A stretch of 33,256 bases of DNA from positions 1 through 33,256 of the forward strand of contig JAFTEC010000064.1 in the NCBI GenBank assembly GCA_017453865.1, given 5' to 3'. This DNA is from Lachnospiraceae bacterium (lineage in GTDB: Bacteria; Bacillota; Clostridia; Lachnospirales; Lachnospiraceae). A program made the position numbers and the translations under genes. The notes beneath the pieces are model-generated. The model worked only from the letters and a program-made list of their open reading frames with translations, was not told the origin of the DNA and did no database searches. Positions 10,585-31,730 of the stretch are shown piece after piece (positions within the stretch are counted from its first letter, which is position 1; every line of letters begins with the position of its first letter).

Positions 10585-11997
10585 TCACTCTATGATCTCT
10601 TCATAGGAGTAATCCCTTCTTATGGTGAAGGAATATCCCTTTTTTGCCTTCAGGCTTACATCCGCCTCGGCATAATCTATGCATCCGTCCATGCGGAAGC
10701 CCTTATTTCCTTCCTTTGTGCGCATATTCATCTCTATGATATCCATGGCTCTCATTACCTTTTTTGTTTTGTTTTCAGTTGCCAGTAGCATCAGGCAGTA
10801 ATCTCCATAATCAAGACCACTCTCATTGTCTCCCTTACTTACGGGAATACTCAGGAACAGGGGAAGCTCAGCTGCCAGCTTTATACGGAAGTCTTTACCT
10901 TCCTTTATCACCGGTATCCTTCCGCCCTTCAGAAGAGTACGCATATCTACAACACTTTCCGCAAAGCCCCAGGTGAAGAGGAGCATATCGGCTAAGGGCT
11001 CCTCTATCTCCGGATTAAGGAGAAGCAGGGAAATGACAGCGGCAAGTGCCTCGCACTGGCCTTTCTTTCCCTCATCCTTAAATACAGCCATTGTGTCCGC
11101 AGCCTCTCTGATAACGAAAAGCTTGAAAACGGTGTCCCGAAAATTAGCCTGATCCGTGTTTTTCCCGTTAAGGATATATTCAAGCTCATAGGAGCAGGAC
11201 TCATGTGAAAGGTCATTTATATAGGAGCTCATTTTCCATTTAAGATAGGCATCAAACAGAAGATCATTCACAAGTGAATCCGGATTACTTTCCGGCCGTA
11301 TTACACCTGCTCCCTGTCTCAGATCCCGGTGGGATGCGGTATTCTTAAGATCAAGCTTTTTGTCGGATACACTTACCCCTCCCGATACCAGTTTTTCTAT
11401 TATTCCCGGTCTTTCATCATAAACCTCGTCCACTGGGCACTTCTCAACCTTCAGATCAACGCCCTTCAGCTCCTTCTCCACTGCCTGTCTTTTTTTGTCT
11501 GTGTCAAAATCCTTTATTCCGCTCTTCTCGTAGTCTGTCGCGTTTCTCTTCAGCTTTTCCACGATCCCCAGACCGAAGTGATCCCTGACGGCGTGGATCG
11601 CCTGCCGCTTAAATTCCCGACCTCCCTGATCGGAGGCATAGGAATACTGTGTGAGCTCCGCTTTCTCCACGTCCAGAGCCATGATCTCGTCCAGCCCGAA
11701 GGACAGTATCCCCTTTGCAGGACGTCCGTTATACTGCATATAACTTTGGAGGTGATCCTCCGTTGCGGAAATATCCGCTTTTCCGCTTCCGTAGGTGGTG
11801 TCTATGAAGAGGAGATCATAATCCTTCAGCAGTTCCCTGTTATACTCGGCAAATATCGACATCAGCCCCATCTCCATGATCATTTCCGTGCGCATCCTCA
11901 GAGCGCTGTATCGAGCGCTTTCGATCACGGCTCCTATGAGAGACAGTATGATCGTCAATGATAAGCTCAGAAAAACAGTTATTGTTCCCCTCTTCAT
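10585..11997 (-). CDS. DUF5702-type Tad-associated surface protein
   Basis: 470 residues. The start MKRGTITVFLSLSLTIILSL resembles a pilin-like leader (possible cleavage after Gly4) but has Phe instead of the usual Glu at +5. One N-terminal membrane helix is followed by a long, mostly helical exposed region. Proteins of this type (DUF5702) occur in Tad loci of Lachnospiraceae and have no established role; structural comparison to TadG-like large pseudopilins is plausible. GGGAGG stands four bases before the ATG. The gene sits between the Flp pilin and the Cys/His pseudopilin, in the part of the operon that encodes structural subunits. Confidence 0.8.
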   Translation of the reverse strand: MKRGTITVFLSLSLTIILSLIGAVIESARYSALRMRTEMIMEMGLMSIFAEYNRELLKDYDLLFIDTTYGSGKADISATEDHLQSYMQYNGRPAKGILSFGLDEIMALDVEKAELTQYSYASDQGGREFKRQAIHAVRDHFGLGIVEKLKRNATDYEKSGIKDFDTDKKRQAVEKELKGVDLKVEKCPVDEVYDERPGIIEKLVSGGVSVSDKKLDLKNTASHRDLRQGAGVIRPESNPDSLVNDLLFDAYLKWKMSSYINDLSHESCSYELEYILNGKNTDQANFRDTVFKLFVIREAADTMAVFKDEGKKGQCEALAAVISLLLLNPEIEEPLADMLLFTWGFAESVVDMRTLLKGGRIPVIKEGKDFRIKLAAELPLFLSIPVSKGDNESGLDYGDYCLMLLATENKTKKVMRAMDIIEMNMRTKEGNKGFRMDGCIDYAEADVSLKAKKGYSFTIRRDYSYEEIIE

Positions 11998-14378: not shown

Positions 14379-15568
14379 ATAAAACCTCCCCTTTCCAGCT
14401 TGTATGTGGCATTTAATTCACCCTCCTTTTTCAGCTTCCCTCCGTCAAAGCCGTACAGGCTTTTATATGTGATCTCCCCATCCTCGCAGCCCGTGATCTC
14501 CACGATCTCCAGTACCTTGCGGCTCTTATCCTTTAGCCTCCCGAGATGGACGATGATGTCCACCGCCGAAGCGATCTGCCGCCTTATCGCCTGCAGGGGA
14601 AGCTCCATTCCCGCCATCAGCACCATAGTTTCAAGCCTTGAGAGCATATCCTTGGCGGAATTTGCGTGTCCGGTGGAAAGACTCCCGTCATGTCCCGTGT
14701 TCGCTGCCTGCAGAAAGTCAAAGGCTGCTCCGTCCCTTATCTCTCCGACTATGATCCTGTCGGGCCGCATACGGAGTGAGGATTTGATAAGATCCCTCAT
14801 AGTAACCGGTTTACAGCCCTCCACATTTGCATTTCTGGTCTCCAGGCTCACAAGATTCGGTATCCCCTGTATCTGAAGCTCTGCGGAGTCCTCAATGGTT
14901 ATCACCCGGGTTTCTTCGGGGATGAAGGATGAGAGAGCGTTCAGGAATGTGGTCTTCCCGCTTCCCGTTCCGCCGGACACGAAGATGTTGTAGCCGCTTA
15001 TGACAAGCTTCCTTAAGAATTCCACTGCTTCCGGGGTAATGGAGCCGAATTTGATTAGATCCTCCATCCTTATGGGTTTCTCAGGGAAGCGCCGTATCGT
15101 TATTACGGGTCCGTTTAATGCCACAGGGTTCATAACTATATTTACCCGGGAGCCGTTTTCCAGCCTGGCATCGACTATGGGGGATGCCTCGTTCACCACT
15201 CTGTTAGATCCCGCTGCTATCTGCTGTATCACGTCATTTAAGGTTTCCTTCGATTCAAAGCGCTTGTCCCAGAGGAACAGTGCCCCGTCTCTCTCAACAA
15301 AGATATTCTCGGTTCCGTTCACCATTATTTCCGTAACCTTCGGATCGTCTATGAGGCTCTGTATCACCCCCTTTTTCCTGATGGAATCAAAGAGCTCCCG
15401 CATCAGCCTCCGTTTGTCTTCGAGACTCAGGTATTCTCTTTTGCCTGCAGATACAACGGCATTGCTTATGATCTCCTCTATTTCCTCATCGCTGACCTCC
15501 CTTGACAGATCTATCTCCCTTAATATCCCGTCGTGAAGCTCCTGTCTTATTTCCGCCGGATCCCTCAT
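14375..15568 (-). CDS. tadA: TadA/CpaF-family pilus assembly ATPase
   Basis: 397 residues, a cytoplasmic hexameric secretion ATPase that drives Tad pilus assembly. Walker A GGTGSGKT is at residues 199-206. The Walker B and Asp box region IIVGEIRDGAAFDFL and the downstream GHDGSLSTGHANS (His box) are intact. The N-terminal domain has IMVNGTENIFVERDG, typical of CpaF. The ATG overlaps the tadZ stop codon by four bases (ATGA), and its own stop overlaps the tadB start, so the three genes are translationally coupled. No key residue is missing. Confidence 0.96.
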   Translation of the reverse strand: MRDPAEIRQELHDGILREIDLSREVSDEEIEEIISNAVVSAGKREYLSLEDKRRLMRELFDSIRKKGVIQSLIDDPKVTEIMVNGTENIFVERDGALFLWDKRFESKETLNDVIQQIAAGSNRVVNEASPIVDARLENGSRVNIVMNPVALNGPVITIRRFPEKPIRMEDLIKFGSITPEAVEFLRKLVISGYNIFVSGGTGSGKTTFLNALSSFIPEETRVITIEDSAELQIQGIPNLVSLETRNANVEGCKPVTMRDLIKSSLRMRPDRIIVGEIRDGAAFDFLQAANTGHDGSLSTGHANSAKDMLSRLETMVLMAGMELPLQAIRRQIASAVDIIVHLGRLKDKSRKVLEIVEITGCEDGEITYKSLYGFDGGKLKKEGELNATYKLERGGFI

Positions 15569-16542
15569 AGCCTTCTCACAAACTCTCCCATTGGCGAATC
15601 TGCCAGAGAATACAGATTTCCGTTAAGCTCGTTCATAAAGGGAATTCTTATCTCACGTGTCTTTTCCAGGATCTCTCCCTGCTCCATTATCCTCAGCATT
15701 GCTTCATACTGTTCAAGCTTTGCCTTCGACACCGTGTCCTCCCTTACCGGCATATATATGATATTTGCTGCCTGAAGTATATCCAGAAATCCGCTTACGG
15801 AATCGGAAAGGTCTACAATGATCTTTGAGTAATCACAGCAGCAGAGCTCATTAAAGAGTATCACCCAGGCTTCGCGGTTTACCGAGAGTATATCGAGGGG
15901 CGATATGACCGGAGGTATGTAATCCATAAGTCCTGCCTTTTCCACCATGCTTGCCAGCTTACAGGGGAAATTCCTCTTTTTCTGATCTATGTAGAACAAA
16001 AGATCCGACAGATCGCTCATATAGTTTTTCTGAAGCAGCTGGTTGAATCCCGAGAACTCTTCGAGACTTACGAACAGCGTTTTCTCTCTTTCCGAAAGGA
16101 CCTCCCCCAGGGCGAAGGCAAAAGATGTTCTGAAGCTTCTTCTTATGGGTGAATAAACGGCTATTATCTCAGTATCCACGCTGTTTATGATGCCGGCCTC
16201 TGCCAATGGCTGTTCGGCGTAATAACACATAACCTCCCGCATGATATTTTCCGAAGACTGGTATTTACAGATCGACTTATGCCCCCGGCTGTCCCTTGCG
16301 CTGTCATTTTCCGAAAGGACCATCATTTCACCGGTATCACAGGCCTCTATGTCATCATCCACGTCGTCCTCCGGGATCAGCAGGATATCAATGCTGTTTA
16401 CCCTGATAAAATCCTTCAGGAGCTCCTTATCCGTGAAGCCCTGGATCTCCAAAGGCACCGACCGGCTGTCGCTCATATAGCTCATAAGCTTTGTGACGTA
16501 TTCTTCGTCAGGATCAAATACCGCTAGTGTGTTTTTTTTCAT
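15565..16542 (-). CDS. tadZ: TadZ/CpaE-like protein with degenerate nucleotide-binding loop
   Basis: 325 residues. Residues 1 to about 110 have a receiver-like alternation (LAVFDPDEEY, IDILLIPEDD). Residues about 130-325 resemble the ParA/MinD-like ATPase half of TadZ, which places the pilus machine in the cell. The Walker A loop expected after the IIAVYSP strand is replaced by IRRSFRTSFA, with no GK[ST]; the later KIIVDLSD strand is retained. It may therefore bind nucleotide poorly or act as a non-hydrolysing localisation factor. Identification rests on fold pattern and on position directly before tadA. AAAGGGAG precedes the ATG. Confidence 0.78.
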   Translation of the reverse strand: MKKNTLAVFDPDEEYVTKLMSYMSDSRSVPLEIQGFTDKELLKDFIRVNSIDILLIPEDDVDDDIEACDTGEMMVLSENDSARDSRGHKSICKYQSSENIMREVMCYYAEQPLAEAGIINSVDTEIIAVYSPIRRSFRTSFAFALGEVLSEREKTLFVSLEEFSGFNQLLQKNYMSDLSDLLFYIDQKKRNFPCKLASMVEKAGLMDYIPPVISPLDILSVNREAWVILFNELCCCDYSKIIVDLSDSVSGFLDILQAANIIYMPVREDTVSKAKLEQYEAMLRIMEQGEILEKTREIRIPFMNELNGNLYSLADSPMGEFVRRL

Positions 16543-18737: not shown

Positions 18738-20069
18738 CTACTGTATGAGCTGCAGTGCCTGCTGCGGTGCCTGATTCGCCTGTGCCAGCATTGATGTTGC
18801 CGCCTGGACCAGGATCTGCTGGCTTGCGTAATTTGTCATTTCCTCCGCCATATCCGTATCCTGTATGCGGCTCATGGCACTGCTTAAGTTCTCATTCGAG
18901 GCTGCAAGATAGCTTATGCTGTGCTCCACGCGGTTCGTGTAGGCGCCTATCTGAGCCCTGGTTGCGGACACATATTTCAGCGCATATGAAACCCTGTCTA
19001 TACTCTGCTGGGCGCTTGCCTTGGTGGTCATACGGAGATTGTCAATATCCAGTCTTTCAAGGGAGATCCTCGGAAGGGAACACTCCACCACCTCTTCCTC
19101 ATTGGCACCGATATGCAGATCCATGGCACCCTGCCCTGTAAGGGTAATATCCAGCTCCAGTCCGCTTATGTTTTCAAACTCCTTATATCTGTATCCATCG
19201 GCATCCTTGGGGATCCCTGCTGATGTTTTTTCTGTAAGCCTTTTATCAAGCCTTAAATTTATCTCTTCTCCATTATCGCCTCTTAAGGTCAGGTACTGGG
19301 TTCCGTCGCTGCAGATCTTTACGAATCCGTCCTGTTTTTTGTCCTCGCCGTCTCTTCCGTATGCTCCCTCGGAGACCCAGGTCCCGTTGTAATTCTCGGC
19401 GGGATCCGTACTGTCTCCGTAGCTAAGCTCGGAATCAAGATACTTGGGGTAGGACATCTTTTCGAGGTTCACGTCCATTATCGTCTGGGCAGGTGATGTG
19501 TCGGTCTCAACCTTTGCCTTTACCGTCAGACTGTGATTCACCGGATCAAAGGTCTCATCAAGGGTGACCTTGTATTTTCCGGCCTTTATCTTGTCGTTAT
19601 ATTCCTCTATCTGAACCATCTTCTCATTCTCACAGTATCCGTGGTTCTCAAGGTGCCCGTCGAGAAGCTTCTGTCCGTTAAGCTCTATCTGCTCCGAGAT
19701 CCTCTGGATCTCTCCGGTCAGCTGGTCCACCTCCTGCTGTATATCCGCGCGGTCACTGGCAGACATGGTGCCGTTACTTGCCTTTATTGCCAGCTCGTTC
19801 AATCTCTGCAGCATATCGTTTACTTCGTTTAAGGCGCCGTCTGCGGTCTCCAGAACAGATTTCCCCGTTGTGGCGTTTACATCGGCTCTTTCAAGAGCCG
19901 CCAGCTGCTGACGCATCCTGCCGGATATGGCATAACCCGTGGGATCGTCTCCCGCAGTGTTTATCTTGTAGCCCGATGACAGCTTTCCCGTGGATAATGA
20001 AAAAGCGGATTCATTCCTTAAGAGGACATTATTGGTGATGATGGATGTGAGATTACTGTTGATGTGCAT
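18738..20069 (-). CDS. Flagellin
   Basis: 443 residues. The conserved N-terminal D0/D1 region (SAFSLSTGKLSSGYKINTAGDDPTGYAISGRMR and LNEVNDMLQRLNELAIKASNG) and C-terminal D1/D0 region (ISYLAASNENLSSAMSRIQDTDMAEEM...QILVQAATSMLAQANQ) are intact. The central ~215 residues (about 150-345) form the variable surface domain. The start MHINSNLTSII and the end QQALQLIQ differ from the usual MRINxN... and ...LQLL, so it may be a divergent or secondary flagellin. GGAGG precedes the ATG by six bases, and the start overlaps the upstream gene by 17 bases. A SigD-type promoter lies inside the upstream gene. FliS follows. Confidence 0.95.
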   Translation of the reverse strand: MHINSNLTSIITNNVLLRNESAFSLSTGKLSSGYKINTAGDDPTGYAISGRMRQQLAALERADVNATTGKSVLETADGALNEVNDMLQRLNELAIKASNGTMSASDRADIQQEVDQLTGEIQRISEQIELNGQKLLDGHLENHGYCENEKMVQIEEYNDKIKAGKYKVTLDETFDPVNHSLTVKAKVETDTSPAQTIMDVNLEKMSYPKYLDSELSYGDSTDPAENYNGTWVSEGAYGRDGEDKKQDGFVKICSDGTQYLTLRGDNGEEINLRLDKRLTEKTSAGIPKDADGYRYKEFENISGLELDITLTGQGAMDLHIGANEEEVVECSLPRISLERLDIDNLRMTTKASAQQSIDRVSYALKYVSATRAQIGAYTNRVEHSISYLAASNENLSSAMSRIQDTDMAEEMTNYASQQILVQAATSMLAQANQAPQQALQLIQ

Positions 20070-23000
20070 AGAATACCTCCGTTAAAAATATCTTCGCTGT
20101 CCTGTATAAAACAGCGGGGCTGTTTCCGGCATCCATGCTCTCTGACCCGCCTGATCCTCCGTCCGTCCCTGACGGAGCCTGATTCCTGCTTCCTATGGAA
20201 GTTATATCGGCAGTTTCCGGGATTCTGTTTATATCCCGGGACAAAGACTTTTCAAAAAATATCCCCTCTCTCCTTATCCCTGCCTCGTCAAGAGCTGCGA
20301 AAAATCTCTCTGAAACCGCGCTTAGCCTCTCTCTCCCGCTTTCGATGGAGGAAGAAGCAATACCCTTTACCGCATCCTTCGAAAGCGTGAATTCCGCATA
20401 AACCTGGCCGAGCTCCTCCGTTTCAAAGGATATGGCGGCCTTTGATTCCCCTGTGCCTCTTACTATCTTCAGGTTTACGGAGAAAAAGCGTCCGTCACTC
20501 TCCATAGGGATCTCATAATTCTCCTCCCGGGACAGGGCCTTCGCAACGGTCAGTCTCCGGTTAAGGCTCTGAAGGCTCTTCAGATCCACATAGCTTTCCG
20601 CGTTGACAGAGGCATCTCTAATAAGCTCCTCCATCTCCTCCGTCATTTCTCCGTATGCTTCCTTAAGGGCATCCCCCGTATCTCCGCTCTCCGCTCTGTC
20701 TTCATCCATTTTTTCGAGCAGCTTCTCCGAGCGTCTCTTTATGCTTTCCCTTATATTTCCGCCAAGCAAGGCCATAAGCTCATTAAGAAAAGCACCCCTG
20801 TCATTCATCAGCGAATCCATGGCGATCACGTTTTCCGGCGTTATCTCCTGTCCATAACGGAGAAGCATTTCGTAGACCTTATCGTCCTTTTCCGCAGCTG
20901 CCCTTATTTCCTCCGCTTCCGCAGCACTGAGTTCCTCCTCTGCTGAAGGTCCTGTCTCAATGTTTACATTCTCCGCCTTCCGCTCTCCCGAATGAGAATC
21001 ACTTCTTCTCACTATGTCCAGAATGTCTTCAAGCGTCGTCTCCTCATCAGACAGCGGAGCGCCCATAAGCTTTTCCGGTGACAGGCTGTCATAAAGCTCG
21101 TGTAAAAGGTTTTGCCGGTATTGCTGCTCCGTTCCCCTTCCCTCGTCTCCTTCATTCCGGAAGGCTGTACCTATCTGGGCATCGATCTTCAGATTACGGG
21201 AGGCATCCTCGGAAGCGGTCAGACCTCCGAAATCATTATCCACGCTGAAATCCATATGGCCTCTGCCTCTGATCCTAAGCTCGGTTAAGAGGTTTTTTAG
21301 TGACAGCTCCTTTCCGCTCTGCAGAAGAGAGCCTATGACCGCACCGTCACTATTCTCGATCTGCCTTAAAAGCCTGAATATCCCGATATAGGACTCTGCT
21401 TCATCATCGGATATCTCATTATTTCTCTCGAGCTTAAAAAGATACTCGCTGAATTTCTCGTTTTCCCCTTCAAGACCCTGCATATCGGAGATCCTGTCAA
21501 TAAGCTCCTGCATATCGGTCTTTAAGGGATTTACTCCCTCCCTTATAAGGGAAACCGCCGCCGCTCCGGTGAGACGGTTAATAAGCGTCCTTACGGTCTG
21601 GTCCGCATTTTTTACGGCAGAGATATTTCCCTCTGTGATCTCCATACTGTTATATCCAAGGATCCTTACCGCCCTTAAGTTTTCTTCCGTTTCCTTTATT
21701 CCCAGCTCATGCAGCAGCTCTCCCGCATTCCGGAAAGCATCTCCTATCCGGTCCCCGAGATCTGCCCTTACCTCCGTACCTACTGCTTCATAGGTCTGAC
21801 CCGCCGCCTCAAACCTGGATCTAAGCCGGTTTCCGGCTTCGTAAACATCATTAACGGTGAAGGCTTCCGCTGAGGAAAAGCCGCCGATCACCGCAGCCGG
21901 CATATTCCGTATCTCGGCGGTCTTGAAGAGGGTTTCCTCCGCGAGGCTTATACTCTCCTCTACCGTCAGCTTATCATTCCCGCCATCCTTCATAAACAGG
22001 GCGTGATAGAAGGCACGCTCCTTAATTTTAAGCTCATCAACCCTTTCCGACAGCTCCTCCGTATCCAGCGTAAAGCCGTTGTCGGCTTCAAGGCTCCTGT
22101 TTGCTTCGATATTCATCCGGAGTCTGGTCTCATTTAAGACCCTCTCATTTTTTGTCCTGCTGTAGCCCTTTATAAGATAAGCATTTCCTGCGCTCTCCCC
22201 ACGGGACAGGGCGCTGCTTATCTCCTCCATAAGATCCCCTGCCTTAAGGGGGAAGGAAAGATTTTTCAGATCCTCATAGAGATTCAGGGTTTCGGGGTTT
22301 AAGGCAAAGCCCTCCCTGATAAGGTATTCCGCGTCCTTTTTTATCTCATCGTCTGCCTTTAAGCCGGACTCCCCGATGATACTGTCTATGCTTTCGGAAA
22401 GTGCCTTAAGATCATCACTTTCCGCGATCTCTGCCATATAACCGGTGCCCTCATTATCGAAATAACCCCTGGCGCCGCCGGAGCCCTCTCCCGAGCCGGA
22501 GTGCTCAGCGAGATAGACATTCTCCACCGTGGGCTCCGCCCCGTTTGACAGCATATATTCAATGCTCCCCTGATCCGGCATTTCCGTCTTTGCCGCTGTA
22601 TCAAAGGCCTGTACGGCATCTCTTATATTCGCATCAGTCACCGGAAGATCCGCGCTTTCAAGACCTGATGCAATGAAATCCTGTAACGCTTCTTCATCCT
22701 TTAATATTTCACTGCTTACGGGAGTATTGTCCGTAATGGCATTTGCGGCCGCCACGCTTCCCGTGATCTTCGCCGCCGTTTCCCTGTCAACGGTATCGGT
22801 AAAGCCCGCAACATTTACGCCTGACCGGGCAAGAATAACCTTTATCCTGTCGAGACCCGTAACGGCCTCTGCGCTGTTCATCCGTCCGGGATGGTAGCCC
22901 TCCTCCTTCATAGCCCGGAAGTCCTTATCCGACATGGTATTTGACATCACTGCCATATAATTATGCGCGTTTTTTGCATCAAAGGAATTGATATCATCTG

Positions 23001-23217
23001 CAAGACCGCTTTTTTCGGCCTTTATTCCCTTCTGCTTTCCCACACCCTTGAAGCCGTGGGCTGCATTCTTACCCTCGCCGATATCCATTACGATCCCGTT
23101 GTCCTTGATCCTGCCGGCATTGTCGGCGCCGTATGCCTTCATCATACGGGGATTCTCTGCTATCCTGTTATTTTCCTTTGCTGTGGATTGTGTCTCTGTC
23201 TGAAAGCTGATGTGCAT
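20053..23217 (-). CDS. Large DUF6240/FliK-like flagellar protein
   Basis: 1054 residues from ATG 23217 (MHISFQTE); a TTG 29 codons upstream is open but less likely, and neither has a clear ribosome binding site. Most of the protein is polar and helical and repeats a degenerate motif: a short helix, Gly, a few residues, then T-x-E-N-V/L (for example GAEPTVENVYLAEHSG, GQEITPENVIAMDSL, GKELSLKNLLTELR). I associate this with DUF6240-type proteins near flagellar genes in Lachnospiraceae. The last ~120 residues (VNLKIVRGTGESKAAISF, ELGQVYAEFTL, RFFAALDEAGI) resemble the C-terminal domain of the hook-length protein FliK. No signal peptide is visible. It precedes flagellin with a 17-base overlap. A hook-length or export-switch role is an inference. 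Confidence 0.7.
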   Translation of the reverse strand: MHISFQTETQSTAKENNRIAENPRMMKAYGADNAGRIKDNGIVMDIGEGKNAAHGFKGVGKQKGIKAEKSGLADDINSFDAKNAHNYMAVMSNTMSDKDFRAMKEEGYHPGRMNSAEAVTGLDRIKVILARSGVNVAGFTDTVDRETAAKITGSVAAANAITDNTPVSSEILKDEEALQDFIASGLESADLPVTDANIRDAVQAFDTAAKTEMPDQGSIEYMLSNGAEPTVENVYLAEHSGSGEGSGGARGYFDNEGTGYMAEIAESDDLKALSESIDSIIGESGLKADDEIKKDAEYLIREGFALNPETLNLYEDLKNLSFPLKAGDLMEEISSALSRGESAGNAYLIKGYSRTKNERVLNETRLRMNIEANRSLEADNGFTLDTEELSERVDELKIKERAFYHALFMKDGGNDKLTVEESISLAEETLFKTAEIRNMPAAVIGGFSSAEAFTVNDVYEAGNRLRSRFEAAGQTYEAVGTEVRADLGDRIGDAFRNAGELLHELGIKETEENLRAVRILGYNSMEITEGNISAVKNADQTVRTLINRLTGAAAVSLIREGVNPLKTDMQELIDRISDMQGLEGENEKFSEYLFKLERNNEISDDEAESYIGIFRLLRQIENSDGAVIGSLLQSGKELSLKNLLTELRIRGRGHMDFSVDNDFGGLTASEDASRNLKIDAQIGTAFRNEGDEGRGTEQQYRQNLLHELYDSLSPEKLMGAPLSDEETTLEDILDIVRRSDSHSGERKAENVNIETGPSAEEELSAAEAEEIRAAAEKDDKVYEMLLRYGQEITPENVIAMDSLMNDRGAFLNELMALLGGNIRESIKRRSEKLLEKMDEDRAESGDTGDALKEAYGEMTEEMEELIRDASVNAESYVDLKSLQSLNRRLTVAKALSREENYEIPMESDGRFFSVNLKIVRGTGESKAAISFETEELGQVYAEFTLSKDAVKGIASSSIESGRERLSAVSERFFAALDEAGIRREGIFFEKSLSRDINRIPETADITSIGSRNQAPSGTDGGSGGSESMDAGNSPAVLYRTAKIFLTEVFYAHQQ
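20204..20231 (-). promoter_or_regulatory. SigD-type flagellin promoter inside the upstream coding sequence
   Basis: On the minus strand TAAA (20231-20228) is followed by 16 bases and GCCGATAT (20211-20204), matching the flagellar sigma factor consensus (TAAA, 14-16 bases, GCCGATAT). The start of transcription would be near 20197, giving a leader of about 128 bases before flagellin. The -10 doubles as Ala-Asp-Ile codons of the upstream protein. Confidence 0.65.
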
Positions 23218-23342
23218 ATGCTGTAAGATTACGTCCCTGCATCTATCTACCTGCGGCAAGCTCCGTTCGCCGCCCGGGTTTTTCGCCCGTAAATACTGTT
23301 TCAATGGTTATTTCGGTTGTTTCCCGTATTTTCTGAAGAGAC

Positions 23343-23982: not shown

Positions 23983-25896
23983 TCAGTCAAATTTGTATAT
24001 CACGGCTCCGAAGGGCGGAAGGGTAAAGCCTATTGAATAGGGCTGATTATCCCATTCGATCTTTTCCGCCTTCACGGTCTTCTGTACTTTTGCTCCCGTA
24101 CCGCCGAAGCGGGTCTCATCACTATTCAGCACCAGAGTGCATTTTGCCTCTTTCGGAAGACCCATGCGGTAGTCATCTCTCTCTATGGGGGTGAAATTGA
24201 CCACAACTGCCAGATTGTTCTTTCCCGTGGAATTCATACGGATATAGGAGTAAAGGCTCTTATCCGTATCGTCGGCATTTATCCACTTAAAGCCCCTGCT
24301 GTCATTGTCAAACTCCCAGAGAGCGCTGTACTCCCTGTATATCCTCAGAAGCTCCTTTGAATATGCCTGCAGCGCTGCATGGTTTGCGTCGTCCAAAAGG
24401 AACCAGTCGATCTCTCTTTCCTCGCTCCATTCCCTCTCCTGTCCGAACTCCTGACCCATAAACAGCAGCTTCTTTCCGCTGTGGGTCATCATAAAGGCAT
24501 AGCCGACCCTCAGATTTGCAAACTTTTCCTGGGGACTTCCGGGCATTTTATTTAGCATTGAGCATTTAAGATGCACCACCTCGTCATGGGACAGCACCAG
24601 AATATAATTCTCCGCGGAATTATAGCTCATGGCGAAGGTCATCTTGTAGTGGTTATTCCTTCTGAAATAGGGATCCAGCTTCATATAGTCGCAGAAATCA
24701 TGCATCCATCCCATATTCCACTTGAAGGAGAAGCCAAGGCCGTCATCCTCCGGCCTTGCGGTCACCTTCGGCCAGGCCGTGGATTCCTCCGCGATCATCA
24801 TGACTCCCTTATTAGCCCCGAGGATCACTGAATTCAGATGCTTAAAGAACTCGATGGCCTCCAGGTTCTTGTTTCCGCCGTATTTATTTGCGACCCATTC
24901 CCCGTCGCGCTTTCCGTAATCAAGATAGAGCATTGATGCCACCGCATCCACTCTCAGACCGTCAATATGGAATTCCTCCACCCAATATGCCGCATTGGCA
25001 ATAAGGAAATTGCTGACCTCACTTTTTCCGTAATTAAAGATCTTTGTGCCCCAGTCGGGATGCTCTCCCTTTCTGGGATCGGAATACTCGAACAGGGGCT
25101 CGCCGTCAAAATTTGCAAGTCCATGCTCGTCTCTGGGGAAATGAGCCGGTACCCAGTCAAGTATCACTCCCACATTGTTTCTGTGGAGCTTGTCAACGAG
25201 ATACCTGAAATCATCGGGATCTCCGTAACGGGAGGTGGGGGCATAGTAGCCTGTAACCTGATATCCCCAGGAACCGTCAAAGGGATGCTCTGCGATCCCC
25301 ATAAGCTCTACATGGGTATATTTCATTTCCTTTAAGTACGACGTTAATCTGTCGGCAAATTCCCTGTAGCTGTAGAATCCGTCGTTCTCTTCGGTGGGAT
25401 GTCTCATCCAGGAACCCATATGACACTCATAGATAGCCATGGGTTCACGGTTCATGTCCTTCTTTTCCCTCTCCTTAAGCCACTTGCCGTCTCCCCATTT
25501 GTAGGGCTTTCCGTTCTTTCCGGAGATAAAGGTTCTTGAAGCGGTTCCCGGTCTCAGCTCCGCATAGGAAGCAAAGGGATCCGCCTTGTAGATGGTGCTT
25601 CCGTTCCCTTTTTCTATGAAAAACTTATAGAGCTGGCCGCTTTCCACCCCGGGAATAAACTTCTGCCATATCCCAACGCCCTCCAGCCTTACCATGGGGT
25701 CCGCCGTTGTATCCCAGTTATTGAATTCCCCTACTACGTGTACCTCCCTTGCGTGAGGTGCCCACACCGCAAAGAAGAAGCCGTCCTTGCCGTCCTCCGT
25801 GCTTGGGTGTGCTCCGAGCTTCGAATAGATCCTGTAGTGGGTGCCGTTTCCGAAAAGATACTGATCATCTTCTGAAATAAATACTTTTTCCCTCAT
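23983..25896 (-). CDS. glgB: 1,4-alpha-glucan branching enzyme GlgB
   Basis: 637 residues, GH13 family. The enzyme cuts alpha-1,4 glucan and rejoins it as alpha-1,6 branches in glycogen, in the cytoplasm. An N-terminal CBM48-type beta-sandwich (FFAVWAPHAREVHVVGEFNNWD) leads to the barrel: VGVILDWVPAHFPRDEHGL, IDGLRVDAVASMLYLDY with the nucleophile Asp317, MMIAEEST with the acid Glu370, and LSHDEVVH. A C-terminal beta domain ends the protein. All active-site residues are present. Its ATG overlaps the stop codon of the upstream TPR/AAA-like gene by four bases, so the two are translationally coupled. Other glycogen genes are not in the window. Confidence 0.97.
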   Translation of the reverse strand: MREKVFISEDDQYLFGNGTHYRIYSKLGAHPSTEDGKDGFFFAVWAPHAREVHVVGEFNNWDTTADPMVRLEGVGIWQKFIPGVESGQLYKFFIEKGNGSTIYKADPFASYAELRPGTASRTFISGKNGKPYKWGDGKWLKEREKKDMNREPMAIYECHMGSWMRHPTEENDGFYSYREFADRLTSYLKEMKYTHVELMGIAEHPFDGSWGYQVTGYYAPTSRYGDPDDFRYLVDKLHRNNVGVILDWVPAHFPRDEHGLANFDGEPLFEYSDPRKGEHPDWGTKIFNYGKSEVSNFLIANAAYWVEEFHIDGLRVDAVASMLYLDYGKRDGEWVANKYGGNKNLEAIEFFKHLNSVILGANKGVMMIAEESTAWPKVTARPEDDGLGFSFKWNMGWMHDFCDYMKLDPYFRRNNHYKMTFAMSYNSAENYILVLSHDEVVHLKCSMLNKMPGSPQEKFANLRVGYAFMMTHSGKKLLFMGQEFGQEREWSEEREIDWFLLDDANHAALQAYSKELLRIYREYSALWEFDNDSRGFKWINADDTDKSLYSYIRMNSTGKNNLAVVVNFTPIERDDYRMGLPKEAKCTLVLNSDETRFGGTGAKVQKTVKAEKIEWDNQPYSIGFTLPPFGAVIYKFD

Positions 25897-28307
25897 ATAA
25901 AATCCTTCTCCCTTAAGATTATCATGTCGTCATCATCATAACGCTTACCCACTACCACATCCAGGAAGTGTCCGGGTGTCTTCCTGTTAACATGCCTTAT
26001 GGCATCGTCCACTATTTCCTCCACCTCGTCTATGGTAACGAAATGGTCCGCCGTCTGCCGCTCATCTATCTTTGTGTAAAGAGCAAGAACCCCAAGGTCG
26101 TCTATGATGTACTCCTGCTCCTTCGCATATTCCCTGCCATGGAAGACCAGATCGTCATTGGTGTAGGTAGGGATCTCGATCTTCACATCAAAAATATCGT
26201 CAAACCAGTCCTTCTTCCGGTTGCGTTCCAGCATCCTGTAGGAGGCCTTTGTCTCCTCCAGAATGAGAAGTATGGAAGTCTCCGGCCTGGTGAGTACCTC
26301 ATGGATATTTTCAAGTGAGGCGTCATTAAGGTCCGCTGCATGCTCGATCACAAGGGCACATCCGTCCAGCGCCTGCAGTACGTCCAGAACGTTCTTTGTA
26401 TTAAAGAGATCCGCGGGTATTTTCGCCACCTTCCCGACAAATTCTTCGGGATGCTCATGCATATAGCCCCTGGCAAGGGCATTCGCAAGGTTGATCCTTG
26501 CGCTCTGCTCGTTTCCGGTAATAAAGACATTTCCGCTGTGTCCGTTCAATCTCATACGGTTAAGGGCATCCCTTATGATGTCCGGAAGATCATGCATCGG
26601 CAGGAACTGGGCAAAAATATCCTTTTCTTCATCATCAAAGCCCTTAACAGGCTGAGGCTCCGGAGCCACATACTTTTTCTTTTTTTCCGAAGGCTCTTTC
26701 CGGACCCTGACTTTTTCCTCAGGGATCTCATCCCCGGTAATATCCTCATCAGAGACATCATCCCCGGTAATATCCTCATCAGGGACATCATCTTCGGGAA
26801 TCTCCTCAGGTTCCCTTATCTTCCGAATGGAATTCACCTTTTCCCTGTGCTCACGAAGAAGCCCCGTAAGGTCGCTGGTAATGGCAAGGGTCTCTCTCTT
26901 CATGCCCTCCTTCGGTCTTTCGGGCGCTGCTTCCCTTATCTCTTCCCCGTGTTCTTCCTCCGGCTCCACGTGAACCGGCTCCTCGGGAAGCGGCTCCTCG
27001 GTTTCAACCTTTATATGCTCCAGTGACTTCTTCTTTACTTCCTCGAGTCTCTTTTTGTCGTGCTGCTCCTTCTGACGGCTCCAGCCGCTTAAGATGTCAT
27101 CTATATTAATCTGCCCCGTTATCTGCTTTTCCGCAGCCTCGGGACTATCGGGGATATTTAAGCTCAGCTGGCCGTCGTAATCCTCCGAAAGGATCCGGGC
27201 GAATTCCCTTTCCACATCACTTGTTCTGTGACTTCCGATATTAAGAGGCTTCCTGTTCGCAAAAACATCATCATCCTCAGCATTTATCCTTGCTGCAGGA
27301 GGCTCCTCCCTAGGGATAAAGGCCTCGGCTCCCGTCTCCTCCGCGGTTATCTCATTTACATCCGTATCCGCCTTCATGGGAGTGATATCCTCCATCGGCG
27401 GCAGGGCGACCTCCTTTTCCCTTAAGGGTTCTCCGGTCTTTTTCTCCAGATCCGTCATGTTCTTTTTCAGCTCGGCCTGAAGATTCATTGTGCTGTATTT
27501 ATCCAGATTTACAGAGGGCTCCTTTATCTCCTCAACACCCAGTCTCTCATTTACTTCCTTGTCGGGGATCCTGTTTGTGGGCTGATTCGACGGCTGGATA
27601 TTGGTTATCTCTATGGAAAGAGGTTCCGATGGTTTTTCTTCCTCTTCTTCACTCCTCGCCGCCGAAATATCCTCAGCGGCGGCAAGCACCTCTATACCGT
27701 CTCTGTGATCGAACTTATGCTGCTGTTCGGGGGTCAGCTCCTCATACTGCATTTTCAGCTTCATAGCCTCGGTAACATACCTGCCATGCCCGAACCACAG
27801 TATAAGCCTGTCACATTCCTCGACACATTTTTCCTTCTCACCGGCCTCAGAGTAAAGCCTCGCCAGCTCAAAGCCCCATCTTTCCTGGTAATCTACATTT
27901 TTCAGCTGCTCCAGTATCTCTATCCTCTGGCCTATACCCACCTTTGTGAAATCATAAAATTTGTACTGCAGCACAAAGGTGCTGGGATCCTGCGGCGCCA
28001 GCTGCATATATTCTTTAAGATATCCGACAGAATTTGTCAGATCCCCCATTTTAATGGAGAGCTCACAGAGGGCATAGATAATGGATTTGGCATTGGGACA
28101 TCTGGCATCCGCCATCAGAAGGATATCCCTTGCTTCTTCGTATCTTCTGTTTACCTTGTATATTTCACTGATCAGACTTAAAGTCCTTACGCTTCTGACC
28201 TTTCTCCAGTCAATAGCGTCGGCCTTCAGAAGAGCCTCGTGATATTCATGGTTTTGTGCAAGCGACCTTATCTGCTCCAGCCGCACATTATATTCGTAAC
28301 GATCCAA
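25893..28307 (-). CDS. TPR protein with acidic linker and degenerate AAA-like domain
   Basis: 804 residues. Residues 1 to about 200 contain TPR-like helical pairs (NHEYHEALLKADAI, NRRYEEARDILLMADARCP, LTNSVGYLKEYMQLAPQDP). Residues about 210-560 are a low-complexity, mostly acidic linker with a 10-residue tandem repeat (DEDITGDDVS). Residues about 565-804 resemble the CbxX/CfxQ-type AAA fold, but the P-loop is ITGNEQSARIN without GK[ST], and the Walker B strand reads CALVIEHAADL without the Asp-Glu pair. It is probably a binding or scaffold module, not an active ATPase. The start is TTG, supported by GGAG seven bases upstream; a strong promoter lies about 70 bases before it. Coupling to glgB suggests a link with glycogen, but no direct evidence of function is seen. 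Confidence 0.75.
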   Translation of the reverse strand: MDRYEYNVRLEQIRSLAQNHEYHEALLKADAIDWRKVRSVRTLSLISEIYKVNRRYEEARDILLMADARCPNAKSIIYALCELSIKMGDLTNSVGYLKEYMQLAPQDPSTFVLQYKFYDFTKVGIGQRIEILEQLKNVDYQERWGFELARLYSEAGEKEKCVEECDRLILWFGHGRYVTEAMKLKMQYEELTPEQQHKFDHRDGIEVLAAAEDISAARSEEEEEKPSEPLSIEITNIQPSNQPTNRIPDKEVNERLGVEEIKEPSVNLDKYSTMNLQAELKKNMTDLEKKTGEPLREKEVALPPMEDITPMKADTDVNEITAEETGAEAFIPREEPPAARINAEDDDVFANRKPLNIGSHRTSDVEREFARILSEDYDGQLSLNIPDSPEAAEKQITGQINIDDILSGWSRQKEQHDKKRLEEVKKKSLEHIKVETEEPLPEEPVHVEPEEEHGEEIREAAPERPKEGMKRETLAITSDLTGLLREHREKVNSIRKIREPEEIPEDDVPDEDITGDDVSDEDITGDEIPEEKVRVRKEPSEKKKKYVAPEPQPVKGFDDEEKDIFAQFLPMHDLPDIIRDALNRMRLNGHSGNVFITGNEQSARINLANALARGYMHEHPEEFVGKVAKIPADLFNTKNVLDVLQALDGCALVIEHAADLNDASLENIHEVLTRPETSILLILEETKASYRMLERNRKKDWFDDIFDVKIEIPTYTNDDLVFHGREYAKEQEYIIDDLGVLALYTKIDERQTADHFVTIDEVEEIVDDAIRHVNRKTPGHFLDVVVGKRYDDDDMIILREKDFI
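26731..26790 (-). repeat. 30-bp tandem repeat in the linker of the TPR/AAA-like gene
   Basis: Positions 26731-26760 and 26761-26790 are identical except for one base (agaga/aggga). The unit encodes DEDITGDDVS-type ten-residue repeats, in frame, and a diverged third copy flanks it. Confidence 0.9.
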
Positions 28308-28442: not shown

Positions 28443-31400
28443 TTAATTTGCCCTGTTGGAATCCAGTATCCTGTGGGCAGCATTTATAAGCATATGAGTA
28501 ATGATGCCGAGGTCCCTGTTAAGCGTCTGGGGGAGTGTCGGCACACGGTCATACAGAACCTGCAGATACTCATATTTCGAATCCAGAAAGTCTGTTATCA
28601 CCGCCGTATATACCGGTGAACCGCCGGATCTCGGTATAAGCTCATCATTGAGTATTCCATGTATCTCCACCCTGTAAGGATCCTTTTCTATGCAGATCTT
28701 CACCCTGTTACCCAGCTTCAGCCCTTCCGGTTCATCAATAAAGAGCTTGACGATATTCTCTGTCATAAGTGTGGTGACACCGTATGACACCGGTGCATCC
28801 CCTGCCTCGTCGAGACCCTGAATGGTAACAGGCTCCGCATCAACCACCTTTACGTTTCCGCTCTCACCGTCACGGCCGTCCACAAGGAATAATGCCATTA
28901 TAAGGAAGTAGATATTCCGGGTGAGCCAGAAAAGGAGAACTACGATGCCGAAAGCCTTCGTAACGGCAAGTATGACTATGGAGCGGATGATACCGATAAC
29001 AGACAGCCCTATCAGCACATAAAAGGGTATATTGAAATTTGCGTCTCCCCTATTCTTTACCCGCCTTCCGGATTTGTCGGTCACCTCGAAGACAGATGCC
29101 GAGATACCAAAGGTTTCCCTGAAAAGAGGTATCAAGAGATGAGGCATAACGCTCATTTCATATATGCCGCTCCACTTTAATGATATCGCGTTGCGGCTGA
29201 ATACCCTCAGTGTCAGATCCTGAAATATGTACATTGGCAGCCAGTATACCAATAGATCCAGCCATCCGCACTTAAATACGGGTACCGTAAATACAGCGAA
29301 CAGCAGAGGTGTTATGAGATATAATGCACATTTCAGAGGCGAATACCAGTAAATTACGGAGCTTAGGTAGCTCAGCTTCTGCTCAAAGGAAAGACCCTTC
29401 TGACTGAGAAGCTTCAGCTTTTTCGCGGTACCGATGACTCCTCTTCCCCAGCGCCTCCTCTGCTGTATATGCTCCTTATAGGTATTCGGAGTGGTTCCGC
29501 TTGCCATAGGCTCGGGAAGCGCAAGACTTATATAGCCCGCGGCCTCGATAAGCATTCCCGTTGCGAAGTCCTCTGTTATGGACTCGGTATAAAACCCGCC
29601 CACGGCATCAAGAGCCTCTCTCGAAAGAACGGTATTGGAGCCTCCGTAGATAACGCTGTTTGAAGTAGTCTTTGCAACCTCGACGGTACGATAGAAGAAA
29701 TCCTGCTCATTTGGCGCATTCTTTTCGGAATACAGCGCATGCTGGAAGATATCCGGCTCGTAGAAGCACTGGGGTGTCTGCAGAAGTCCCAGACCCTTTT
29801 CCTCACCCCGCTGCTTTTTCGAATCCACAAAGTACGGTATGGTGTTCAGGAGAAAATGGCTCATGGGTATCATATCCGCGTCGAAGGTAACGATATATGG
29901 CGAGCTTGTATGTGCCATGGCGTTATTCAGATTACCGGCCTTTGCGCCCTTATTGTCCGGCCTGTCAAAATAGCCGACACCCATTTCCTCCGCGAGCTTT
30001 CTAATCTCAGGTCTTCTGTTGTCATCGCAGAGCCAGATATGGACCTTTGACTTATCGGGATACAAAAGATGATTGCAGCCGTTAATGGTTTTTCTGAGGA
30101 GCTCCGCCGGTTCATTATAGGTTGCAATGAAGACATCCACATCCGGAAATTCCTCATCTTTAATGACCGGCACAGGGTACTCCTTCATACCCATCAGATT
30201 CCTGTAAAGGACCAATGATTCGATAAAGCCCAGTATCTCCACAAAAAGAAGCAGGACATTGGCGACCACCGGAAGAACTCCCATTTTGAACGGAACAGAG
30301 AATCGTATACGCCAGACAAGATACAGTATCGTAAAAAACATACTTAATATCAGGGCTGCCATTCGTATAACGGCCCTCGTTTTCTCTTTATCCGTCACGT
30401 TCCGGTTTTTCCCGCCGATATCGTCATAGTCGGCTTGACTCTTTTTCCCGAATAAAGAATAAAGTATCCGGAGGATAAAAAACAGTATAAGCCCGATCCC
30501 GACAAACAGAGCGTTCCTTGGCCAGTCCCCGACCGCATTCAGGACCTCCCGATCCGAGTGAATGACAAAGAAACGCAAAAGACCGTTTGCTTTTGTTACA
30601 GCCGCAGGCTCAGAGATACTTAAGGGGTCTTCCCCCCGTACAAGAGAACGCACCCACTGACCGTAGGCTGTAAGATCATTTTCCCTTATGGAGGATGCCG
30701 GTTTATAATCCGGTTTCAGCATTGCTGAGCTCTCGTTTTTATTCGAAAAGCTCCACACAACGAAGCTGATATTATGCTCCCTAAGATACGAAAACCATTC
30801 GGCGGCCGAAGCATAATCTGTCTTGCCGTCACCCGTCTCTTCAGATAATCCGCATTCGGAAATAAATACAGGCAGACCGCCCTCGACAGCTGTCTTCAGT
30901 TCCGACCTCAGCTCCTCCTTATGGCTTGCGGCATAAAAGTGAAGGGAATACATCAGATTATCCCCGTTGACCGGCGACATCATGGAAGGCGTAAGCATCC
31001 TGTCATAAGCAGGTGTTCCCACAACGATAACAGAGGAGGGACTTTTTTCCCGTACCACAGGGATCACTTCCTCGGCATATTTCTTTACTTCCAGCCAGGT
31101 AGTATCTCCATTGGGCTCATTACATATTTCATATATTATATTGGGGCAGTCGGGATAGGCAGCGGTAATGGTGTCAAAAAACTCCTCAGCATACCTTTTA
31201 TTGACGTTGGGATCCTGTTCCTCCAGAACGTGCCAGTCCACCAGAACGTACATATCAGCTGCGATAGCCGCATCCACTCCCTTTTTTACCAGCGACAGAG
31301 TCTCCTCCTTATTCCCGTTCACATATTCCTGGGAGTAGGCGGCAAGCCTTATCAGGTTACAGCTCCAGTCTGAGGAAAGATACCTGAATTTCTCTTCGCT

Positions 31401-31643
31401 CACAAAGTCGGGATACCAGGTGAGGCCGTGGGTACTGATTCCTCTAAGGACAACAGTATTTCCATCCCTGTCCTTCAGCTCGGTCCCCTCCACATGAAGC
31501 GCTCCGTTTACGGAAGGCCTTGCTGTTTCCACCTTTTCCGCGCTCTTACCCTCCGTTGCAAAAGCACTGACAGAAAAACAGAAAAGCAAAACCGCAGTAA
31601 GTATAAATACCGGTAACCTCCGTAAAAATCTGTTCTTCCTCAC
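28443..31643 (-). CDS. Fusion of secreted GH5 cellulase domain and cellulose synthase (BcsA-like GT2)
   Basis: 1066 residues from GTG 31643, with GAGGAG nine bases before it; a TTG at 31727 is open but would bury the signal peptide. Order: signal peptide/anchor (1 to about 32); a GH5 domain (about 45-335) with acid/base Glu176 in EICNEPNG and nucleophile Glu263 in ISECG; a membrane helix (about 377-397); two or three more helices; then a cytosolic GT2 cellulose synthase core. The core has FIATYNEP, LCDDN near 540, DADM at 588-591, TED at 690-692, QQRRRW at 727-732 and the gating loop FEVTDK at 852-857. More helices follow, then a PilZ-like C-terminal domain lacking the c-di-GMP motifs. The synthase makes and extrudes beta-1,4-glucan while the GH5 domain faces outside. 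No separate BcsB or BcsC gene is visible. Confidence 0.9.
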   Translation of the reverse strand: MRKNRFLRRLPVFILTAVLLFCFSVSAFATEGKSAEKVETARPSVNGALHVEGTELKDRDGNTVVLRGISTHGLTWYPDFVSEEKFRYLSSDWSCNLIRLAAYSQEYVNGNKEETLSLVKKGVDAAIAADMYVLVDWHVLEEQDPNVNKRYAEEFFDTITAAYPDCPNIIYEICNEPNGDTTWLEVKKYAEEVIPVVREKSPSSVIVVGTPAYDRMLTPSMMSPVNGDNLMYSLHFYAASHKEELRSELKTAVEGGLPVFISECGLSEETGDGKTDYASAAEWFSYLREHNISFVVWSFSNKNESSAMLKPDYKPASSIRENDLTAYGQWVRSLVRGEDPLSISEPAAVTKANGLLRFFVIHSDREVLNAVGDWPRNALFVGIGLILFFILRILYSLFGKKSQADYDDIGGKNRNVTDKEKTRAVIRMAALILSMFFTILYLVWRIRFSVPFKMGVLPVVANVLLLFVEILGFIESLVLYRNLMGMKEYPVPVIKDEEFPDVDVFIATYNEPAELLRKTINGCNHLLYPDKSKVHIWLCDDNRRPEIRKLAEEMGVGYFDRPDNKGAKAGNLNNAMAHTSSPYIVTFDADMIPMSHFLLNTIPYFVDSKKQRGEEKGLGLLQTPQCFYEPDIFQHALYSEKNAPNEQDFFYRTVEVAKTTSNSVIYGGSNTVLSREALDAVGGFYTESITEDFATGMLIEAAGYISLALPEPMASGTTPNTYKEHIQQRRRWGRGVIGTAKKLKLLSQKGLSFEQKLSYLSSVIYWYSPLKCALYLITPLLFAVFTVPVFKCGWLDLLVYWLPMYIFQDLTLRVFSRNAISLKWSGIYEMSVMPHLLIPLFRETFGISASVFEVTDKSGRRVKNRGDANFNIPFYVLIGLSVIGIIRSIVILAVTKAFGIVVLLFWLTRNIYFLIMALFLVDGRDGESGNVKVVDAEPVTIQGLDEAGDAPVSYGVTTLMTENIVKLFIDEPEGLKLGNRVKICIEKDPYRVEIHGILNDELIPRSGGSPVYTAVITDFLDSKYEYLQVLYDRVPTLPQTLNRDLGIITHMLINAAHRILDSNRAN

Positions 31644-31683
31644 CCCGTTACTCTCCTCTACAGACTTTTTTCCGTACACCAAT

Positions 31684-31707
31684 ATCCCGTGCGTATCCAC
31701 ACGGGAT
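31684..31707 (-). promoter_or_regulatory. Perfect 8-bp inverted repeat in the leader of the cellulose synthase fusion
   Basis: ATCCCGTG (31684-31691) and CACGGGAT (31700-31707) are exact inverted repeats around an 8-base centre. They lie between the candidate promoter and the ribosome binding site, so the element may be an operator or a leader hairpin. No T run follows, which argues against a terminator. Confidence 0.55.
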
Positions 31708-31730
31708 CGGATTTTCTCTCTTTTCAAATG

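Follow-up and report, generated by a model that had tools for sequence, protein, structure and literature searches.

In clostridia, the synthase CcsA has a separate partner from glycoside hydrolase family 5 (GH5), and the available text on the C. difficile partner, CcsZ, describes cutting of carboxymethylcellulose and cellopentaose (PMC7710045). Hydrolase–synthase fusions of other kinds are present in the literature (PMC7710045, PMC10374906, PMC7112194, PMC7464555, PMC11842490, PMC10237404). Here we describe a gene that joins a GH5 domain to a cellulose-synthase-like glycosyltransferase of family 2 (GT2). The gene lies on the minus strand of a 33,256-nucleotide stretch of DNA (hereafter the window; positions 1 to 33,256 of contig JAFTEC010000064.1, assembly GCA_017453865.1) from a Lachnospiraceae bacterium. 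The closest known layouts are the GH17–GT2 proteins of pseudomonads (NdvB) and the CesA–GH6 proteins of tunicates. Among the matches listed in searches of open PubMed Central text, outside which most subscription papers and bioRxiv lie, none named a GH5–GT2 fusion. However, because fusions of other kinds are known, the arrangement is not a new category. We propose, with a probability of roughly 55%, that the protein is a stand-alone membrane β-glucan synthase, independent of cyclic di-GMP (c-di-GMP), whose GH5 domain cuts the protein's own chain as it emerges.

The minus-strand frame at 28443-31727 runs uninterrupted for 1094 codons, with TTG 31727 at its upstream end (1094 amino acids). Because GAGGAG precedes GTG 31643, and because this codon matches the start of a 1066-amino-acid relative (locus L063), GTG 31643 is the better start and the product probably has 1066 amino acids. 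The predicted order within the polypeptide is a signal peptide, a GH5 cellulase domain, an extra transmembrane helix, a cellulose-synthase-like GT2 core, and a PilZ-like barrel (Table 1). A first-pass annotation of this stretch had described a cellulase and a synthase in one uninterrupted polypeptide, and the open frame, the Pfam matches, and 29 further sequences of the same architecture bear this out. Its assignment of the N-terminal half to GH5 is confirmed by a profile match to PF00150 at residues 86-331 (E = 5.5e-56; 190.5 bits versus a gathering score of 23.5). GH5 is the sole glycosidase family, to the exclusion of GH17, that Pfam matched in the protein. GT2 families match between residues 528 and 813 (Pfam), and the NCBIfam model TIGR03030 (CelA) matches at 450-969 (E = 2.5e-103). 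The latter score, 346.4 bits, is about half the cut-off of 699.1, and thus the synthase half is not filed as BcsA. The expected GT2 motifs DDN, DAD, TED, and QQRRRW, together with FxVTxK in the form FEVTDK, are all present as previously noted, and the majority of the residues in them vary little or not at all across 28 aligned fusions. No Pfam match to PilZ was found in the C-terminal region; a barrel is nonetheless formed there in the structure model.

The gene is under purifying selection and its catalytic residues are intact. Specifically, the ratio of nonsynonymous to synonymous substitution rates (dN/dS) is 0.05-0.33 in all five segments relative to L062 and L063, and 0.15-0.19 across the junction. 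Against L063, the values are 0.155 for GH5, 0.147 for the linker plus helix, 0.055 for the glycosyltransferase (GT), and 0.116 for the C-terminus, whereas against L064 dS was saturated in every segment except the signal peptide. Named genomes were scanned for the best 80 loci, and all counts from these loci are therefore lower bounds. At least 28 of them carry GH5 followed by GT2 in one frame, of which 26 are complete, one is cut by a contig end (L078), and one has a frame break in GH5 (L084). Together with the window gene and a copy in genome G080, this gives 30 GH5–GT2 fusion sequences. The alignment of 28 fusions (A2) omits L078 and L084. The 29 further sequences of the same architecture, together with the dN/dS values in the segments and across the junction, rule out chance, a frameshift, or an assembly error.

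The first-pass annotation had itself named an assembly error, or a frameshift joining two neighboring genes, as the finding that would overturn its proposal, and this explanation now retains a negligible probability. It is true that GH5 and GT genes occur as separate neighbors: G112 and G203, listed in the family table with open frames of 955 and 960, were rejected as fusions after stop codons were found between two adjacent genes in each. However, the explanation is refuted by at least 26 complete single-frame copies in separate records among the best 80 loci, by the copy in G080, and by selection that runs across the GH5/GT2 junction.

The survey of relatives that had been suggested as a check reveals a multi-group family. 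A full-length match was found in 2 of 299 sampled genomes of the same taxonomic family, namely the window genome and G080, whose protein is 58% identical to the window fusion and whose gene neighborhood differs. The class and phylum samples each yielded one matching genome at E 1e-220 (1/391 and 1/398, respectively), in both cases the window's own genome, and so the fusion is rare. Carriers include the named strains Lachnospiraceae AD3010, Butyrivibrio FCS014 and AC2005, Pseudobutyrivibrio MD2005, and Treponema C6A8, and a frame-broken copy is present in Treponema JC4; we take all six to be cultured strains. The AD3010 protein is 86% identical to that of the window. Members of the clade come from records named Lachnospiraceae, Erysipelotrichaceae, Oscillospiraceae, Anaerovoracaceae, Treponema, and “actinobacterium,” among which bin names may be wrong, although both Treponema carriers are named strains. 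The fusion is common to a range of gut bacteria. Record titles with words pointing to ruminants occur for 18 of 30 named members versus 9 of 30 loci in L112-L141, a post hoc comparison in which we presume the meaning of the title codes. Plasmid carriage was rejected, as none of six matching plasmid records covers 80% of the query.

Two fusions with the reverse order, GT2 then GH5, were found among two-gene GT-GH5 loci (L102:7941-10628, 895 amino acids; L111:144-2801, 885 amino acids). At L075, GH5 and GT2 are split over two frames, and L088 is cut by a contig end. Genes were chosen by longest frame, which lost the true frames of L058, L101, and L093 (GT), as well as those of L118 and L119 (both GH5 alone); these five loci lie outside the trees, motif counts, and site counts. 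L058 and L101 are one record, with GH5 then GT as two genes. A rescan without this choice gave no additional complete fusion among the best 80 loci.

A GT2 tree of 73 rows, with E. coli BcsA as its root, gathers the 30 fusions into one clade of 32 rows with a Shimodaira–Hasegawa-like approximate likelihood ratio support of 100; the other two rows are L075 and L088. Adjoining this clade are L034, the second copy in the window's own genome, and L039 (support 98 for the 34-row set). A careful 71-row tree, made without L060 and L049, requires the same number of label changes. The GT2 half falls in with clostridial CcsA-like synthases. The fused GH5 domains likewise form one clade (34 rows, support 98), which under midpoint rooting adjoins 26 stand-alone GH5 rather than the GT-adjacent GH5. 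Alignment A3 contains 87 of the 115 available rows. For groups named after inspection of the trees, approximately unbiased (AU) tests rejected a single clade for both fusion orders (p = 1e-62) and a single clade for the 18 Lachnospiraceae fusions (p = 5e-8). The first rejection means that this type of fusion arose at least twice, and the second that the GH5–GT2 order has most probably passed from one lineage to another. The family, apparently a one-gene unit, is found in named strains and in distant bacterial groups. This spread, together with the second origin in reverse order, suggests that there is selection for coupling the cutting to the making.

The correctly spaced pair of c-di-GMP motifs, RxxxR and D/NxSxxG, is absent from all 30 fusions and both reverse fusions, and is present in 2 of 19 split-adjacent and 19 of 21 GT-only rows. 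The two GT-only rows without the pair are L088, a cut fusion, and L060, which is truncated. Thus, the fusion clade has lost c-di-GMP motifs that its relatives keep. The window's own genome has 25 GGDEF matches, 23 of them above the cut-off, and so c-di-GMP is probably made there.

No consistent neighbor gene was found across the 30 loci, in a table that may hold shadow frames. The widest neighbor family occurs in 8 of 30 loci with varying place and strand, and its one scanned member (at L083) is an ABC ATPase; the remaining families occur in at most 3 of 30 loci, mainly the window, L062, and L063. In the window, an 804-amino-acid protein without a Pfam match (25893-28307) follows the fusion beside glgB (23983-25896), and the same pair comes after it in L062 and L063, the two nearest relatives. 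No consistent surroundings of the ccsZABHI type, in which CcsA stands next to CcsZ, CcsB, MBOAT, and DHHW genes, accompany the fusions, whereas MBOAT, AlgX/DHHW-like, and GH5 genes stand alongside L034. A second CcsA-like GT was sought at E 1e-50 in 18 genomes, drawn from those of the 28 named fusion loci, and 16 of them showed none. The earlier remark that no BcsB partner is visible extends to the whole genome as assembled (87.5% complete), where PF03170 has no match; six other genomes also lack one (0/7 in total), and BcsC was not found in either of two Treponema genomes.

Two Glu residues had been named as the catalytic pair of the GH5 domain (Glu176 and Glu263), and this identification stands. 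Their aligned counterparts in B. agaradhaerens Cel5A are E139 and E228, which we take to be the catalytic residues of that enzyme; neither Glu varies across the 28 aligned fusions or across all 30 sequences. Residues aligned with the catalytic and presumed −1/−2 subsite positions of Cel5A are retained in 27-30 of 30 fusions. At the position of W178, presumably the +1 platform, 29 of 30 fused GH5 domains carry Tyr or Phe, compared to Trp in 25/25 free, 10/18 GT-adjacent, and 2/2 reverse-fusion GH5. Directly after the nucleophile, Cys is found in 28/30 fused, 9/18 GT-adjacent, 2/2 reverse-fusion, and 0/25 free GH5; in the 25 free enzymes, this residue is always Phe or Tyr. (The comparison was made without the duplicate L136.) Given the changed +1 residue and the Cys beside the nucleophile, the fused GH5 domains look specialised, and the Cys-type specialisation seems to extend to other synthase-coupled GH5.

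An ordinary surface cellulase for plant-fibre digestion, tethered only incidentally to a synthase, might be found next to stand-alone GH5 in the midpoint-rooted tree and in bacteria from ruminants, as the record titles of 18 of the 30 named members would have it. We nevertheless consider this explanation improbable. It leaves unexplained the two independent fusions of opposite order, each with an added helix, as well as the invariant GT2 site and the distribution of the Cys residue.

The hydropathy of the extra helix is 2.42 in the window protein and 1.44-3.04 across 28 fusions, exceeding 1.6 in 26 of them. Between two conserved anchors, the tether measures 19-33 residues (median 30) in the 28 fusions, and the predicted local distance difference test score falls below 50 at model residues 349-352. 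The high-confidence model of the fusion protein matches cellulases and BcsA. Its residues 369-1066 align with BcsA from residue 34, and the extra helix (374-398) lies inside that stretch. GH17 is absent among the fold matches listed for the model, which carries no weight against GH17 likeness. Both reverse-order fusions carry their own added helix at another place. In either order, the added helix is thus expected to leave the cellulase on the outer side of the membrane and the synthase on the inner side. For the window protein, these topology signals agree with the external location of GH5 proposed in the first-pass annotation. The further idea advanced there, a cutter held at a fixed 1:1 ratio near the glucan exit, is partly supported: such an arrangement would be compatible with topology and model.

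In the mechanism we propose, the cytosolic GT2 domain would polymerise glucose from uridine diphosphate glucose (UDP-glucose) and extrude the chain through its own helices with the reducing end leading, as BcsA does. The GH5 domain, tethered by about 30 residues on the outside of that molecule, would grip and cut the emerging chain, such that each synthase sets the length of its own product or releases it. Because the lineage lost its c-di-GMP motifs, output would probably be governed by expression and UDP-glucose instead of c-di-GMP. We infer that the polymer is a β-1,4-glucan, that GH5 acts on the chain of its own synthase, and that it mainly hydrolyses. The proposal builds on what the sequences themselves show: which domains are present, that their active-site residues are intact, what the topology signals indicate, that the fusions share an ancestor, that the c-di-GMP motifs were lost, and that no neighbor gene is consistent.

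Several observations weigh against it. The replacement of Trp at the +1 position may mean altered chemistry. The single same-genus genome that was surveyed, itself 99% complete, yielded no match at E 1e-60, and some copies of the fusion are broken (L084, L092, L096, and L099, where L092 has a short frame holding parts of both domains). L100 and L104 lie inside the fused-GH5 clade with no GT beside either, and so the GH5 can work alone. The genomes of L062 and L068 do hold a second CcsA-like GT (E 1e-50). The window's own genome also holds, on another contig (C115), a ccs-type operon with a PilZ-bearing synthase (L034:5253-16181), comprising VTC, DUF4956, CotH, MBOAT, AlgX/DHHW-like, GT2-PilZ, and GDSL-GH5 genes; the GH5 of that operon is joined to a GDSL-type domain. 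Finally, linkage is unreadable from sequence, and the available text on Romboutsia describes a BcsA-like GT2 that makes mixed-linkage glucan (PMC10374906). An annotation as “cellulose synthase” in such bacteria may therefore hide a different glucan.

The main alternative, which we regard as unlikely, is that the GH5 domain is a transglycosylase in the manner of NdvB; its glycosyl-enzyme would close the chain into a ring, elongate it, or pass it to an acceptor, so that the product would be envelope glucans of cyclic form or defined size in place of free cellulose. In the available description, the pseudomonad GH17–GT2 protein has the same layout, with a signal peptide, an outer TIM barrel, three helices, and a GT2 domain without RxxxR (PMC10237404). 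The changed +1 subsite, next to largely retained −1/−2 residues, could fit such chemistry, subject to the subsite roles assumed above. GH5 and GH17 are also both families of retaining enzymes in clan GH-A. Moreover, Treponema are bacteria with two membranes, and because neither BcsB nor BcsC was found in two Treponema genomes, the glucan may stay in the periplasm there. On the other hand, both in the tree and in structure comparisons the domain comes closest to plain endoglucanases or to stand-alone GH5, the +1 change is suggestive at most since both reverse fusions retain Trp, and we know of no cyclic β-1,4-glucan.

Another possibility, slightly less probable again than the plant-fibre explanation, is that GH5 attaches the growing chain to an acceptor on the cell surface and so anchors the glucan. 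The −1 side would hold the part of the chain that is still in the channel, and transfer instead of hydrolysis would then join the chain on by its new reducing end. The retaining mechanism of the family and the chain polarity of BcsA would permit this, and the lack of a consistent neighbor gene and of a BcsB match is in keeping with it; against it, there is no known acceptor. A more general proposal, about as unlikely as the NdvB-like one, is an independently evolved hydrolase–synthase glucan machine. Here, the GH5 glycosyl-enzyme step would set the length of, cyclise, or graft a growing β-1,4-glucan without c-di-GMP control or a dedicated partner, and in Treponema this would occur inside the periplasm without an exporter.

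Table 1. Features of the GH5–GT2 fusion gene in the window
Feature	Position	Strand	Basis or remark
Whole fusion gene	28443..31643	−	1066 amino acids from GTG 31643
Signal peptide / N-terminal hydrophobic helix (predicted)	31554..31643	−	hydropathy peak 38-56 of 1094-residue frame; model helix 2-31
GH5 (Cel5A-like) domain	30630..31520	−	residues 70-366 of 1094-residue frame
Codon of Glu204 (first-pass Glu176), predicted acid/base	31116..31118	−	aligns with Cel5A E139
Codon of Glu291 (first-pass Glu263), predicted nucleophile	30855..30857	−	aligns with Cel5A E228
GH5-to-membrane tether, including short membrane-adjacent helix	30525..30629	−	anchor spacing in 28 fusions; model
Extra transmembrane helix, boundary of GH5 and synthase core	30450..30524	−	hydropathy; model helix 374-398
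GT2 synthase core and its transmembrane helices	28878..30392	−	
DDN motif, UDP-glucose site by homology	30018..30026	−	
DAD motif	29874..29882	−	
TED motif, catalytic base by homology	29568..29576	−	
QQRRRW motif, acceptor site by homology	29448..29465	−	
FEVTDK gating-loop motif	29073..29090	−	
C-terminal PilZ-like β barrel without RxxxR and D/NxSxxG	28446..28832	−	model strands 938-1018

Elsewhere in the window, genes for TadZ-like, DUF5702, and DUF6382-FHA proteins (15565-16542, 10585-11997, and 7311-8705) suggest a Tad-type pilus cluster, and a flagellin gene stands next to one for a 1083-amino-acid DUF6240 protein (18738-23304). Among the two-gene loci, L106, L107, L108, L113, and L114 carry GT2 plus GH5 in records named Candidatus Saccharibacteria, which is unexpected for glucan synthesis, and the GH5–GT2 pairs at L036, L037, and L057 adjoin large BspA-type leucine-rich-repeat proteins.

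Why cellulose-making bacteria carry a cellulase gene is a long-standing question, and a 1:1 fusion in which both sites are apparently intact allows a one-protein test. The present analysis adds to the first-pass annotation the multi-group family, two origins of opposite order, the loss of c-di-GMP motifs, and the recognition that related hydrolase–synthase fusions were already known.

Among these, the pseudomonad “Orphan”/NdvB cyclic-β-glucan synthase resembles the fusion in combining an extracytoplasmic TIM-barrel glycosidase with the helices and GT2 core noted above, in the missing RxxxR motif, and in a gene outside the cellulose operon, as far as the available text describes it. However, its glycosidase is GH17 with a proposed β-1,3 product, and that text notes no PilZ-like barrel of the kind predicted here (PMC10237404). 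Because the GT2 domain sits among clostridial CcsA-like rows, in a tree without a pseudomonad sequence, the fusion is likely separate from NdvB. The CcsA/CcsZ system shares the lineage of the GT2 core, with L034 in the sister group, and a GH5 partner acting on β-1,4-glucan. That report describes CcsZ as a protein of its own, draws its comparison with GH5_25 enzymes, and gives CcsA a PilZ domain (PMC7710045). In contrast, the fusion includes its own Cel5A-like GH5, has lost the c-di-GMP motifs, and is not consistently accompanied by any ccs-type neighbor. Its GH5 also differs from Bacillus Cel5A-type endoglucanases in being fused and membrane-tethered, in the +1 change from Trp to Tyr or Phe (29/30), and in the Cys by the nucleophile (28/30). 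In Zymomonas BcsAB and BcsZC, parts of the cellulose operon are fused likewise, but in the text available the hydrolase is never joined to the synthase (PMC7112194). Tunicate CesA–GH6 does unite a cellulose synthase with a cellulase-family domain in one polypeptide; according to the available text, however, this is an animal gene with a GH6 domain whose catalytic Asp is not conserved (PMC7464555), whereas the GH5 catalytic residues are kept in the bacterial fusion.

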